The position numbers were made by a program, and so were the translations under genes. Positions 13,868-58,689 of a DNA stretch of 63,605 nucleotides are shown here, one piece after another. This DNA is from Nitrospirae bacterium GWB2_47_37 (GTDB taxonomy: Bacteria > Nitrospirota > Thermodesulfovibrionia > Thermodesulfovibrionales > Dissulfurispiraceae). Where the stretch lies: contig MHDU01000034.1 in assembly GCA_001803635.1 (NCBI GenBank), forward strand, positions 1 through 63,605, read 5' to 3'. The notes under the pieces are model-generated. The model saw nothing but the letters and a program-made list of their open reading frames with translations. It searched no databases and was not told the origin of the DNA. Positions within the stretch are counted from its first letter, which is position 1, and each line of letters starts with the position of its first letter.

Positions 13868-14782
13868 ATGCCCGCCGGCGCAGCTTATCTAAAACTATCG
13901 CGCGGAGAATTATGGGAGCGGGTAAGGCGTGCAGAAGAAATACTTAAAAACTGTACGCTCTGCCCCCGCGACTGCATGGTAGACAGGACTTCGGGAGGAG
14001 TCGGCTTCTGCAGGACGGGAGACGAACCCTTTGTCGCGAGTTGGGGACCTCATTTCGGAGAGGAAAGACCGCTCGTAGGGCGCTTGGGTTCCGGCACTAT
14101 CTTTTTCAGCAGGTGCAATCTGGGCTGCATATTCTGCCAGAACTGGACCATAAGCCACTTAGGCGAAGGTAACGAAATAACCGATGAAAAGCTTGCCGAT
14201 ATAATGCTGAAATTGCAGGAAGCGGGTTGCCACAATATAAACTTAGTCACACCCACTCATCAAATGCCGATGATACTGCATTCCATAGCCATAGCTTCAG
14301 AAAAAGGATTGAATATTCCCATCGTATATAACTGCGGAGGATACGAAGCGATAGAATCCCTGAAAATCCTCGACGGCATAATCGACATTTACATGCCCGA
14401 TTTCAAATACGCGAATCCCGAAGCGGCGCTTAAATACTCAAAGGCAAAGGACTATCCGGAAACGGCAAAGGCCGCGATCAAAGAGATGCACCGACAGGTC
14501 GGGGATCTGCTGATAGATGATAAAGGCACAGCGTCGCGCGGACTTCTCGTAAGACACCTCATACTTCCCGAAGGCATTGCGGGCACAAAAGAAATCGTGA
14601 GGTTCATAGCGGATGAAATCTCCGAAAACACATACATCAACATCATGGATCAGTACTATCCCTGTTACAAGGCATTCGAGCACCATCCCCTCGACAGGAG
14701 GATAACAAATAACGAATATTCAGAGGCCGTAAAGGCCGCACTGGATGCGGGTTTGAAAAGGATAGAAGGAGTAACGTTTTGA
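13868..14782 (+). CDS. radical SAM protein, PflA-like (COG1313 type)
   Basis: A 304-residue radical SAM enzyme. The cluster-binding motif CNLGCIFC (CX3CX2C) lies near residue 83. An N-terminal cysteine group (CTLCPRDCMVDR ... GFCRTGDEP, residues about 35-62) is typical of the pyruvate-formate-lyase-activating-like subgroup of unknown substrate. HNINLVTPTHQMPMIL and YNCGGYEAIESL are also characteristic. It overlaps the next gene by 4 nt (TTGA). The substrate cannot be assigned from the sequence. Confidence 0.88.
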   Translation: MPAGAAYLKLSRGELWERVRRAEEILKNCTLCPRDCMVDRTSGGVGFCRTGDEPFVASWGPHFGEERPLVGRLGSGTIFFSRCNLGCIFCQNWTISHLGEGNEITDEKLADIMLKLQEAGCHNINLVTPTHQMPMILHSIAIASEKGLNIPIVYNCGGYEAIESLKILDGIIDIYMPDFKYANPEAALKYSKAKDYPETAKAAIKEMHRQVGDLLIDDKGTASRGLLVRHLILPEGIAGTKEIVRFIADEISENTYINIMDQYYPCYKAFEHHPLDRRITNNEYSEAVKAALDAGLKRIEGVTF

Positions 14783-16161
14783 AAATAAAATTCTTGGGCG
14801 GGGTCAGGACGGTCACAGGCACATGTTTTCACCTGTCGATAAACGATTTGCAGCTACTCGTTGACTGCGGCATGTATCAGGGGGAGCATGCCGATGACAT
14901 AAACAAAGCGCAGTTCCAATTCAATCCGCAGGATATCGATTGCCTCTTTTTAACCCACGCCCATATAGACCATTCCGGACTTATTCCAAGACTCGTAAAA
15001 GACGGCTTTAAAGGCAGGATATTCTCAACATACGCCGGCGCGGACCTTGCCGAAATCATGCTTTACGACTCCGCGCAGATACAGGAAAAAGACGCTGAAT
15101 GGCTTACCAAAAAGGCATTCAGGTCAGGAAAGGATATTGTGTTCGAACCTTTATATACGACCGGAGACGCAAGAGCGGCAATCCGGTTCTTCGAGAAAAA
15201 AACTTACGGTAAGACCGAAAATCTCGGTAAGGCCGTGAAATACCGATTTATAGATGCCGGTCATATTCTCGGTTCCGGGACATTGGAAATATGGTATCAA
15301 GACAGCCCTGTCGAAAGAAAAATAGTATTCTCCGGAGACATAGGCAAAAAAGGAAATCCGATAATCAACGACCCGCAACACGCGGGGACGGCGGATTATG
15401 TTGTAATGGAATCGACATACGGCAACAGGCTGCACAAAGGCATGGAGGAGAGCATCGACGAACTCGCGGAGGCGATAAAGGTTACGTTTAAGAGAGGCGG
15501 CAATGTGTTAATCCCGGCCTTTGCCGTCGGAAGGACTCAGGATATTCTATACACCTTGAACAAATTGTCCGGGGAAGGAAGGCTCAATAACCTCAATGTC
15601 TATGTGGACAGCCCCCTCGCGGAAGATACGACAAAGGTCTATTTAGCTCACCCCGAATGTTACGATGAAGAGGCGCTGAAAATGCTCAGAAACAGAAAAG
15701 GCAATGCGATAAAACTTCACTTCACGACCTCGGTAGAGGACTCTCAGAAGATAAACGGAATAAAATCCGGAGCCGTTATTATTGCCGGAAGCGGCATGTG
15801 CGACGGGGGGAGAATAAGGCATCACTTCAAGCATAACCTCTGGCGCAAGGAATGCAGCATAATATTTTCAGGGTTTCAGGCTGAGGGAACCCTCGGAAGA
15901 AAAATAATTGACGGAGCAAAGATCGTCCCTGTACTCGGAGAAAATATCGCGGTAAAAGCGAAAGTCTATACCATCGGAGGCTTCTCGGCCCATGCGGACA
16001 GGGACGGGCTTCTCGAATGGCTCGGCGCGTTTTCAAATAAGCCGGAAGTATTCATTGTCCACGGCGAAGAGAATGTCTCTCTCGAATTCGAGGAGACGGT
16101 AAAAGAAAGATTCGGATTCATAACGCATGTGCCTCACAAAGGAGAAGAATTCCAGATTTAG
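14779..16161 (+). CDS. MBL-fold beta-CASP RNA nuclease
   Basis: A 460-residue metallo-beta-lactamase/beta-CASP protein related to bacterial and archaeal CPSF-like nucleases. The metal site is THAHIDHSG near residue 55, with IDAGHILGSG and FSGDIGKKGNPI further on. The beta-CASP region includes VLIPAFAVGRTQ, IIAGSGMCDGGR and the C-terminal RMMBL segment GGFSAHADRDGLLEW. The start is TTG at 14779, overlapping the radical SAM stop, supported by AAGGAG 7 nt upstream. Predicted role: RNA processing or decay in the cytoplasm. Confidence 0.92.
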   Translation: MKIKFLGGVRTVTGTCFHLSINDLQLLVDCGMYQGEHADDINKAQFQFNPQDIDCLFLTHAHIDHSGLIPRLVKDGFKGRIFSTYAGADLAEIMLYDSAQIQEKDAEWLTKKAFRSGKDIVFEPLYTTGDARAAIRFFEKKTYGKTENLGKAVKYRFIDAGHILGSGTLEIWYQDSPVERKIVFSGDIGKKGNPIINDPQHAGTADYVVMESTYGNRLHKGMEESIDELAEAIKVTFKRGGNVLIPAFAVGRTQDILYTLNKLSGEGRLNNLNVYVDSPLAEDTTKVYLAHPECYDEEALKMLRNRKGNAIKLHFTTSVEDSQKINGIKSGAVIIAGSGMCDGGRIRHHFKHNLWRKECSIIFSGFQAEGTLGRKIIDGAKIVPVLGENIAVKAKVYTIGGFSAHADRDGLLEWLGAFSNKPEVFIVHGEENVSLEFEETVKERFGFITHVPHKGEEFQI

Positions 16162-16185
16162 AATGTATAACAAAATGCCTAATAA

Positions 16186-16318
16186 AACTGATAGGGCATT
16201 GTATTGTAGCGGTTTCAGCAGCTCGAAGTTTCGTAGTGATGGCGAAACCGAGCTGGCGCCTCGGAGCCGAACAAGGATGTTCGGCGAGAATGAGCGGAAA
16301 TACTGTGACCTATCAGTT
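16186..16318. repeat. three-stem structured repeat, copy A
   Basis: A 133-bp intergenic element between convergent genes. The outer stem is AACTGATAGG (16186) with CCTATCAGTT (16309-16318). Inside are hairpin 1 (16219-16255; CAGCTCG paired with CGAGCTG plus an inner GTTTCG/CGAAAC) and hairpin 2 (16266-16285; GCCGAAC, loop AAGGAT, GTTCGGC). Unpaired conserved blocks are AGCGGTTTCAG, GCGCCTCGGA and GAGAATGAGCGG. Copy B at 56450-56569 keeps these blocks but has different, still complementary stems. Confidence 0.8.
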
Positions 16319-17550: not shown

Positions 17551-17640
17551 GGAGAGGTGGCCGAGCGGCTTAAGGTGCACGACTGGAAATCGTGTGTGGG
17601 GTTAAACTCACCGAGGGTTCAAATCCCTCCCTCTCCGCCA
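17551..17640 (+). tRNA. tRNA-Ser (GGA anticodon)
   Basis: The acceptor stem GGAGAGG (17551-17557) pairs with CCTCTCC (17630-17636), followed by G and an encoded CCA. D-arm GTGGCCGAGCGGCTTAAGG, anticodon loop CTGGAAA with GGA, a long class II variable arm and a T-arm with GGTTCAAATCC are all present. The long variable arm and anticodon identify serine (UCC/UCU codons). Confidence 0.97.
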
Positions 17641-17644
17641 TTTT

Positions 17645-17776
17645 TTCTACAGCCGGGGGCCGGCCCTGCGCAGCAGGCAGGTGTGAATCCCGCCAGGTCC
17701 GGAAGGAAGCAACGGTAAGCATTTTGTCTGGGTGCCGCAGCAAGCCGGTTCCGTAAGCCGGTCCCCGGGTGTAGAA
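17645..17776 (+). ncRNA. ffs: signal recognition particle RNA (4.5S type)
   Basis: The conserved apical region GCCAGGTCCGGAAGGAAGCA followed by GGGTGCCGCAGCAAGCC is diagnostic of bacterial small SRP RNA. The ends pair over a long distance (TTCTAC...CCGGGGGCCGGC with GCCGGTCCCCGGG...GTAGAA). No Alu domain is present. The core transcript is probably about 17650-17770; I list the full paired region. Lies between tRNA-Ser and dnaX, a common arrangement. Confidence 0.93.
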
Positions 17777-55567: not shown

Positions 55568-56461
55568 TTACCTGTAGAGCATCTCGAATAAATTTTCCGC
55601 GCGATCCCGGTCTATCTTATTCAGCAGTATGTACTCCTCCATCGCGGCTTCTCTATTGCCGCTGAGGAAATAGGCCATGCCGATATTAAACCGCGTTATC
55701 GGATTGTAAGGGTCTACATCCAATGCCTGCTTCAGGACATCGAGCGCTTCGAAGTATTCGTTCATAATAATATGCAGGGTAGCGAGCTTATTATAAATAG
55801 AGGCATCCGGCTTCAGCCTTAAAGCCTTCCTGTATGCGTCTATAGCCTCCTGATATTTACCGGACTTGTAATAAGCAAGCCCGCGCTTAAAATATTCCTC
55901 TGCTTCGTCAGGCTTTTTATGCTTCGGGATATCGGCAGGTTTTTCTATGATAGCTTTGCTGCTTTCGGGCAACGGCTTCAGTGTTGGAACAGAGACGTCA
56001 GGAACGGATGCCTGAAGTTCCGGCGCCGTTTCCCTCTTTGCCGCTTTCGCCGATTTTTTATATATCGCGATCTGCTTTCTGATATAGTCGGCATGGCTGT
56101 AATCCGAAGAATATTTGACCTCAGTAAGTCCTCCTGCCTTTATTTCGAACAAAGCTATATCCTGCTTCCGGTTAAAGACGAACAGTTTGCCGATCTCATA
56201 AGACCCGCCGTCTTCCGTCTTTACTACAAGCGAATTGCCGACATCGTCAAGCCATTTGACGATCAACTTGCAGTTTGTCGCGATTATTCCGTCCCTGTCC
56301 GCGATAAAACCGCTCCCGGAGACAATCACATTCCCCTGCCTGTCATTAATAACAATCTCGACAACAGACTTCTTCTGTTTTAACAAAAAATCCGGGTCTT
56401 TCGCATCTGCCGCTGAAACAACAAACAGTAAAAATACTAAGAAGATGACAAGAGAGGACAT
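55568..56461 (-). CDS. exported TPR protein with degenerate trypsin-like domain
   Basis: A 297-residue protein. It has a signal peptide (SSLVIFLVFLLFVVSAADA) and a half trypsin-like fold at about residues 25-115. There GSGFIADRDGIIATN is followed by CKL where the catalytic His should be; DIALFEI is kept, but the Ser region is missing. TPR repeats span about 185-290 (AEEYFKRGLAYYKSGKYQEA, AYRKALRLKPDASIYNKLA). So it is a binding rather than proteolytic protein. The ATG at 56461 lies inside the outer stem of the structured repeat; the apparent upstream extension is repeat sequence. Confidence 0.82.
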   Translation of the reverse strand: MSSLVIFLVFLLFVVSAADAKDPDFLLKQKKSVVEIVINDRQGNVIVSGSGFIADRDGIIATNCKLIVKWLDDVGNSLVVKTEDGGSYEIGKLFVFNRKQDIALFEIKAGGLTEVKYSSDYSHADYIRKQIAIYKKSAKAAKRETAPELQASVPDVSVPTLKPLPESSKAIIEKPADIPKHKKPDEAEEYFKRGLAYYKSGKYQEAIDAYRKALRLKPDASIYNKLATLHIIMNEYFEALDVLKQALDVDPYNPITRFNIGMAYFLSGNREAAMEEYILLNKIDRDRAENLFEMLYR

Positions 56462-56569
56462 TGGAGCGGCTTCGGCAGCCCAAGCGTGGCATGGATGTCT
56501 AAGCGGGCTGGCGCAGCCTCGGAGAAAGGCTTGGATGCCTTTCGAGAATGAGCGGGAATGCCCTCTCTT
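56450..56569. repeat. three-stem structured repeat, copy B
   Basis: A 120-bp element between rnr and the TPR gene. The outer stem is AAGAGAGG (56450-56457) with CCTCTCTT (56562-56569), extended by CATT/AATG. Hairpin 1 spans 56476-56510 (CAGCCC with GGGCTG). Hairpin 2 spans 56524-56543 (GAAAGGC, loop TTGGAT, GCCTTTC). Conserved blocks shared with copy A are AGCGGCTTCGG, GCGCAGCCTCGGA and GAGAATGAGCGG. All three stems differ from copy A yet remain complementary. Confidence 0.8.
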
Positions 56570-56586
56570 GGCATATAACGCTGCTT

Positions 56587-58689
56587 TCATATCCCCAGAA
56601 CTATCTCCCTTTCTTCCATATCCACCTTGTCGATCCTGACATGCACCTCTTTGCCGACGGCATACCTTTTCTTCTTATGAATGCCGTAAAGGCTCCGGCT
56701 CTTTTCGTCGTACTGATAAAAGTCATCGGTCATAAATGATACGTGGAGAAAGCCTTCCACATAATAATCCTTAAGCCTTATCTTCAGTCCGTGCGACGCC
56801 ACAGCTACCACCTTGCCCTCGAATTCATCGCCGACTTTATCCTTCATAAACCAGACCCTCATGGCATCGAGTACCTTTCTTTCCGCATCGTCGGCCTGTC
56901 TCTCCATTTTCGATGAATGGAATGCTATATCCTGTAAAATCGATTCGAGCTCTTTTATTCTTTTATCTCCGAGATGTTTTTTCGCAAGGACTTCGCTTAG
57001 TATCCTGTGGACGACAAGGTCGGGATACCTCCTTATAGGCGACGTGAAATGGGTGTAAGACTCGGACGCGAGCCCGAAATGGCCGACATTTACAGGAGAG
57101 TATTTGGCCTGTTTCAGGCTCCGCAATATCATATGACTTATTATATCTTCCTCCGGCGTGCCCTGAATCTGCTTTAAAAGTCCGGGGAAATCCCTTGCCT
57201 TCATGCCCTTCCTGCCTTTATGTATGCCGAGGGTATTGATAGTCTTCATTATATCCTCAAGCTTCGTAATGTCCGGCTCCTCATGGATCCTGTAGAGGCT
57301 CGGAATTCCTAAATTCTCGAGATGCCCCGCGACAGCCTCATTGGCGGCGATCATGAACTCCTCTATCATCATATGCGCGAAATTCCTTACGGCCCTTATG
57401 ATATTTTCCGGATTTCCCTGAATATCGAGAAGCACTTCAGGCTCGGGAAGGTCGAAGTCGAGGCTTCCTCTCTTAAGCCTGCCTGCTTTCAAAATATCGC
57501 ATAACTCTCCCATCATCTCAAAATCATGAAGCAGATAATCGTATCTTTCCCTCTCCGTTTTATCTTCATCGATCAGTATTTCTTTAACGGATGTGTATGT
57601 CATCCTCTCGTTGCTGTTGATAATGCTCGGATAGAACTTCTGATTTATCCTTTCTCCGGTTCCGTCGAAATCCATCTCGACCGTAAATGCGAACCTGTCG
57701 ACTTTGGGTTTTAAACTGCACAGGTCCTCCGACAGTTCCTTCGGAAGCATGGGGATAACCCTGTCGGGGAAGTAAACGCTCGTGCCTCTTTTTCGCGCCT
57801 CGGCGTCAAGAAAAGAGCCCCATTTCACGTAATGCCCGACATCCGCTATATGCACCCATAATCTATACCCGTTATCCGATTTTTCTATAGATATTGCGTC
57901 GTCAAAATCCTTTGCCCTTTCACCGTCTATGGTTATGGTAGGCAAATGCCTTAAATCCTTTCTCTTCAGGCCGCCGGCCGCCGCGCGCCGGTTGTTTACA
58001 TAAAGGCCCTTTGCCTCTTCAATGGCATTGTGCGAAAACCTTATCGGGAGATTTAATTCATCTATAATGCCCTCTACCTCGTCGAGCGGGTTCTCGGGTT
58101 TTTTTAGGATCTTTATTATCCTGCCCGCAGGAGTTCTTTTGTCCGTGGGATAACTTATTATCTCTGCGATAACGCTGTCTCCGTCTTTTGCCTTGCCCCT
58201 CTCCTTCGGGGCTATATAAAGATCAAAAGGGACAGCCCTGTTTTTAGGCTTAACATAAAACCCTGTCCTGCTCGTTTCAAATGTCCCGGCTACGCGGGCA
58301 TGAGCCCTTTCAAGGATGCGGATTATCCGGCCTTCCCGTCTGTGCTTATTTTCCATCCGGGCTACGACCCTGTCGTTATCCATAGCGCCGAGGGTCGCGC
58401 GCGCGGGTATGAATACGTCCCTTTCCCCCGGTCTTTCGAGTATCACAAAACCGTAACCGTCCCGGTGAGCCTCGAAATAGCCGGTAACAAGGCTCATCTC
58501 CTCGGACAAACCGTAAAGACCTTTTCTCGTCCTGACAATATTGCCGTCATTGACCATTTCTCTCAGGAACCTTTTGAGCTTGCGGCTTTCAGGGGGGGTA
58601 AGATTTAAGTTATAAACTATTTCCCGGAAACCGAGAGGCTGCGTGACTTTTTCTTTGAAAAATGCTGTGAGTGAATCTTTTGTGATCAT
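56587..58689 (-). CDS. rnr: ribonuclease R
   Basis: A 700-residue RNB-family 3'-5' exoribonuclease. An N-terminal winged-helix region (FREIVYNLNLTPPESRKLKR) and cold-shock OB domains lead to the RNB domain with ITIDGERAKDFDDAISIEKS (metal-binding Asp cluster). FPDRVIPMLPKELSEDLCSL and HFTSPIRRYPDLVVHRIL follow, then a C-terminal S1 domain (GDEFEGKVVAVASHGLKIRL). Degrades structured RNA. It starts 6 nt after the multihaem cytochrome gene. Confidence 0.95.
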   Translation of the reverse strand: MITKDSLTAFFKEKVTQPLGFREIVYNLNLTPPESRKLKRFLREMVNDGNIVRTRKGLYGLSEEMSLVTGYFEAHRDGYGFVILERPGERDVFIPARATLGAMDNDRVVARMENKHRREGRIIRILERAHARVAGTFETSRTGFYVKPKNRAVPFDLYIAPKERGKAKDGDSVIAEIISYPTDKRTPAGRIIKILKKPENPLDEVEGIIDELNLPIRFSHNAIEEAKGLYVNNRRAAAGGLKRKDLRHLPTITIDGERAKDFDDAISIEKSDNGYRLWVHIADVGHYVKWGSFLDAEARKRGTSVYFPDRVIPMLPKELSEDLCSLKPKVDRFAFTVEMDFDGTGERINQKFYPSIINSNERMTYTSVKEILIDEDKTERERYDYLLHDFEMMGELCDILKAGRLKRGSLDFDLPEPEVLLDIQGNPENIIRAVRNFAHMMIEEFMIAANEAVAGHLENLGIPSLYRIHEEPDITKLEDIMKTINTLGIHKGRKGMKARDFPGLLKQIQGTPEEDIISHMILRSLKQAKYSPVNVGHFGLASESYTHFTSPIRRYPDLVVHRILSEVLAKKHLGDKRIKELESILQDIAFHSSKMERQADDAERKVLDAMRVWFMKDKVGDEFEGKVVAVASHGLKIRLKDYYVEGFLHVSFMTDDFYQYDEKSRSLYGIHKKKRYAVGKEVHVRIDKVDMEEREIVLGI

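Follow-up and report, generated by a model that had tools for sequence, protein, structure and literature searches.

We identified an unnamed family of dispersed, intergenic repeats with a predicted three-way-junction RNA fold, which is present in 33-35 copies in the 2.47-Mb genome of Nitrospirae bacterium GWB2_47_37 and in 0 to more than 120 copies in other genomes, and whose hairpin tips match the binding site of the regulator protein CsrA mainly in those bacteria that encode CsrA. The family, its fold, its covariation, its dispersal and the association of its loops with CsrA rest on computation, whereas transcription, CsrA binding and any effect on the host are inferred; the element may be a mobile repeat whose RNA binds CsrA where CsrA exists.

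The analysis started from two copies in a window of 63,605 nucleotides (contig MHDU01000034.1, assembly GCA_001803635.1), both of which read on the + strand. They share the strings AGCGGTTTCAG / AGCGGCTTCGG, GCGCCTCGGA / GCGCAGCCTCGGA, and GAGAATGAGCGG (16286-16297 and 56544-56555), whereas the outer stem, hairpin 1 and hairpin 2 differ in sequence and still pair, although the outer stems are not perfectly paired. In copy 1, the arms of the outer stem (16186-16205 and 16299-16318) enclose the conserved AGCGG of the junction (16208-16212), hairpin 1 (16219-16255; A-type, loop AGTGATG, no GGA), the CTC of a short helix that pairs with GAG at 16286-16288, followed by a conserved GGA bulge (together 16260-16265, the bulge at 16263-16265), hairpin 2 (16266-16285; GCCGAACAAGGATGTTCGGC), in which ACAAGGATGT matches the CsrA SELEX consensus with GGA at 16275-16277, and the conserved GAGAATGAGCGG that closes the junction. 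A tail at 16160-16180 (AGAATGTATAACAAAATGCCT) is related to tails found beside several other A-type copies and is likely the remnant of a terminal inverted repeat. In copy 2, the arms of the outer stem lie at 56449-56462 and 56557-56570 (the left arm, read on the - strand, overlaps the apparent start (MSSL...) of the TPR protein gene 55568-56590), and enclose AGCGG (56465-56469), hairpin 1 (56476-56510; B-type, GGCATGGATGTC, GGA at 56493-56495), CTC plus the GGA bulge (56518-56523), and hairpin 2 (56524-56543; GAAAGGCTTGGATGCCTTTC, loop TTGGAT, GGA at 56533-56535).

Both copies fold far better than dinucleotide-shuffled sequence (z = -5.5 for copy 1 and -4.1 for copy 2 on the + strand). The 12-mer GAGAATGAGCGG occurs exactly 16 times in the genome, 14 of these inside full copies, and with one mismatch allowed there were 34 occurrences against 5 for the reversed control. 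Sixteen copies were aligned without a structure model, and RNAalifold yielded 43 consensus pairs, 28 of them with changes on both sides; 95.6% of cells were paired, compared to 78.5% for shuffled letters and 34-44% for shifted partners, and there were 123 double changes against 37 in shuffles (0 of 500 shuffles reached the observed value) and 11-23 when partners were slid, i.e., all three stems covary strongly. No Rfam family matches, and no sub-threshold match covers the element, even at E <= 10 for copy 1 and E <= 1 for 15 other copies. The initial annotation, which had proposed a selected three-way-junction fold belonging to no named family, either a structured ncRNA or a REP/ERIC-like dispersed repeat, is therefore supported: further copies conserve the stems, and the structured-RNA and dispersed-repeat readings, between which it did not decide, are both right. 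It missed, however, the GGA hairpin loops, and its third option, an mRNA stability element, is neither shown nor excluded.

A covariance model found 35 matches at E <= 1 in the same genome, about 33 of them strong, and matches in 24 of 40 relatives, with 0 to at least 77 copies. An exact-pattern scan of named genomes returned at least 105 stretches, in Nitrospirota, Desulfobacterota, Gemmatimonadota, Latescibacterota and Halorhodospira; single hits labelled Planctomycetota and Alphaproteobacteria do not fold as the element and were not counted. One Nitrospirota MAG (G052) has 123 copies and a Desulfurivibrio genome 24. A search of plasmids with one copy, and a scan of viral contigs with the core pattern, found nothing. 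Literature searches found no description of this family.

The conserved part comprises about 90-130 nt (conserved core AGCGG...CTC-GGA-hairpin-GAGAATGAGCGG). From the 5' end, it consists of an outer stem of mostly 17-25 bp with a conserved inner part and a copy-specific outer part; AGCGG, which was invariant in the 16 aligned copies; hairpin 1; CTC; the 3-nt GGA bulge (156 of 162 copies); hairpin 2; GAG, which pairs with CTC; AATGA; and GCGG. GC pairs with GC and GG with CC, so that three helices meet. At least two subtypes occur in the genus: A (hairpin-1 loop GTGAT/GTGAC) and B (hairpin 1 with a GGA loop).

The apical loops suggest a possible ligand. In CsrA-encoding genomes, the loop of hairpin 2 almost always holds GGA, mostly as TGGAT, ATGGAT, TTGGAT, AGGAT or similar, and that of hairpin 1 often does so. 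This matches the CsrA SELEX consensus RUACARGGAUGU with GGA in a hexaloop, the ANGGAN hexaloops bound by RsmE, and the CAGGA(U/A/C)G repeats in the loops of CsrB; one CsrA dimer bridges sites 10-63 nt apart (PMC7652899). The two GGA loops of copy 2 lie 40 nt apart, within this range, whereas copy 1, like other A-type copies, has GGA only in the loop of hairpin 2 (plus the bulge). The genome encodes a canonical CsrA, with an ORF resembling FliW nearby. In a first set of genomes, GGA loops were near-universal where CsrA is encoded and missing in most copies of eight genomes in which no CsrA was detected (G024, G033, G035, G036, G047, G051, G053 and G054). In a second set, examined after this association had been noted, 7 of 8 genomes with CsrA but 1 of 7 without it had GGA loops (p = 0.009). 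In total, loops carried GGA in 33 of 34 sampled genomes that encode CsrA against 8 of 22 without it (Fisher p = 7e-7); the values were 22/23 against 2/12 for Nitrospirota at least 90% complete (p = 4e-6), and 9/9 against 0/3 with one vote per Nitrospirota family (p = 0.0045). Genomes were scored by hand from the listed loops, with borderline CsrA-lacking genomes counted as having GGA. The presence of the element was also associated with CsrA in the 40 relatives (p = 0.009).

The association is not without exceptions. The genomes G012 (29 copies, 96% complete), G044 (Gemmatimonadota), G048 and two Latescibacterota keep GGA loops without a detected CsrA; some of these may be incomplete MAGs, but G012 is not. 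Conversely, the CsrA-encoding genome G162 lacks GGA loops in its one copy examined. Moreover, genomes are not independent and phylogeny was not controlled: the CsrA-lacking genomes without GGA are largely from three families of one order that share a subfamily with a different hairpin 1. In copies from CsrA-lacking Nitrospirota (L354, L358, L360, L387 and others), hairpin 1 follows a different conserved pattern, TTTTGCCGATATTC...AAAGAGGCAAAA, which hints at another constraint or ligand. The GGA bulge is conserved with or without CsrA, so it has another role. Between tandem genes, the element is mostly antisense to them (36:17 sites, one-sided p = 0.006), so that most messages would carry the complement without GGA loops; this either means that sense copies, with CsrA sites in messages, are selected against, or argues against a role in messages. 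No promoter bias on the sense side was found.

Nevertheless, a CsrA-binding RNA is the best single explanation of the loops, although we consider it only about as likely as not. When a copy is transcribed in the sense direction, from a neighbouring promoter or one of its own, the RNA would most likely bind a CsrA dimer, and it would then act as a local CsrA site on that transcript or as part of a distributed CsrA sink. More tentatively, a horizontally widespread, mobile RNA repeat might have become a distributed CsrA-binding network, with tens to more than a hundred copies per genome presenting CsrA hairpins, loops that co-evolve with CsrA, and lineages that lose CsrA letting the loops decay while keeping the rest of the fold. 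Dispersed repeats are usually treated as genome litter; if CsrA binds this one, transposition has rewired post-transcriptional regulation at dozens of genes at once, and the element would give a first lead to CsrA antagonists in Nitrospirota, for which we found no described Csr sRNAs.

Some copies sit in MITE-like units. In one genome, G049, a unit of about 187 bp (ends CCCAAAATTGTCATTGG) has the inverted repeats CCCAAAATTGTCATTG.../...AATGACAATTCTGGG, and 9 of 15 copies are flanked by identical 4-bp repeats against 2.6 expected (p = 1e-4). A longer variant in G049 (about 229 bp; L416-L419, L425-L427, L429) carries an additional hairpin (CCCCGAAAATGTC...GACTTTTCGGGG) in the junction, before the final GAGCGG, and solo units of about 50-70 bp (L420, L421, L423, L433, L435) have only the terminal inverted repeats and a short arm hairpin, like core-less remnants or an independent mini-MITE, so that the core looks like cargo there. 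In the genus of the genome studied here, the tails are decayed and the ends too diverged to be sure. A comparison of about 1.4 Mb from three species showed about 15 filled/empty sites and some 25 sites filled in two species; several of the latter have the core inverted in place and/or replaced by another subtype (e.g., copy 1 of the window against its counterpart in G002), which could reflect inversion between the palindromic arms, re-insertion, or recombination among copies. Conservation of the core between species is high, but A-type paralogues are as similar to each other as orthologues are, so it cannot be read as proof of selection at each site, and homogenisation or recent replacement is not excluded. 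In one copy in G002 (L265:12279-12342), the core is deleted between the two AGCGG repeats, leaving only the outer hairpin, which suggests slippage as the route of core loss, and a copy in G000 (L060/L026, contig C45, near 62000) is interrupted in hairpin 1 by another repeat, GGGGACTGTCCC...GGGACTGTCCCC. A copy in a Halorhodospira MAG (L110:1276-1458) has a perfect, locus-specific outer stem of 54 bp, the longest seen, and two Nitrospirota copies (L116, L133) have near-identical cores but unrelated arms of 26-30 bp, suggesting a process that builds new palindromic arms around the core. An origin of the outer stem by inverted duplication of the target was, however, not supported by most filled/empty pairs, in which both arms are absent from the empty site, leaving the long-arm copies unexplained. 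For insertion into terminators or pre-existing palindromes there was one possible case (L259 against L233), which is equally well read as a deletion.

The main rival is a purely selfish, non-autonomous DNA transposon (MITE), in which the fold is needed as single-stranded DNA or cruciform for mobilisation by a transposase acting in trans, the host gains nothing, and the GGA loops reflect subfamily history. The terminal repeats and target duplications in G049, the solo and internally deleted units with the same ends, the highly uneven copy number among close relatives, the different subfamilies or inverted cores at the same site, and an antisense bias compatible with purging of costly insertions are in line with this view. 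We regard it as less likely. Against it, solo units without the core also occur in G049, so that the core seems not to be needed there, covariation persists in copies shared by species, and loop GGA tracks CsrA across many lineages; in addition, no autonomous partner was found, although longer pairs of terminal-repeat matches in G049 were not examined for a transposase gene, and the Y1 transposase family is absent from the genome studied here. Less likely still is a bidirectional 3'-end or operon-spacer element like REP/BIME, in which either strand folds, protecting messages from exonucleases or pausing transcription, so that inversion is tolerated. The tight placement between genes (often 20-60 nt to each neighbour), the location of more than half of the sites in G000-G002 between tandem genes, the good folding of both strands, and the inverted cores at shared sites agree with it, but it does not explain the invariant unpaired GGA bulge and AATGAGCGG, the CsrA association, or the antisense bias, and copies also lie in divergent intergenic regions (11 of 91 sites). 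A retron-like or other reverse-transcribed repeat is refuted as a current mechanism in the high-copy genomes G000-G003, G012 and G019, because reverse transcriptase (PF00078) is absent from them.

Among known systems, CsrB/CsrC and RsmX/Y/Z, the CsrA/RsmA-sequestering sRNAs, are likewise short structured RNAs with several GGA motifs in hairpin loops, but the element described here occurs as dispersed multi-copy repeats inside mobile units rather than as one dedicated sRNA gene, and has a fixed three-way junction. REP/BIME and ERIC repeats are also intergenic, palindromic, foldable and present in tens of copies; the present element differs by its three-way junction with a conserved unpaired core, its spread across phyla, inverted repeats and target duplications in some genomes, and the absence of a RAYT-type Y1 transposase (PF01797) from the genome studied here. 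The MITEs QMITE1/2 of Coxiella, non-autonomous units with terminal inverted repeats and about 50 copies per genome, are foldable and some give rise to sRNAs (PMC5896051); they are not reported there as CsrA ligands, and the core of our element is conserved across phyla with compensatory stem changes. CsrA was considered and rejected for Beggiatoaceae repeats (PMC4679880). Retron msr-msd shares with the element an outer stem closing a multi-hairpin RNA.

Finally, the two copies of the window lie next to RNA-processing genes (14779-16161 and 56587-58689), a beta-CASP/RMMBL metallo-hydrolase and an RNase R-like RNB protein, which is probably a coincidence, and a tRNA and the bacterial small SRP RNA lie side by side just downstream of copy 1 (17551-17754).
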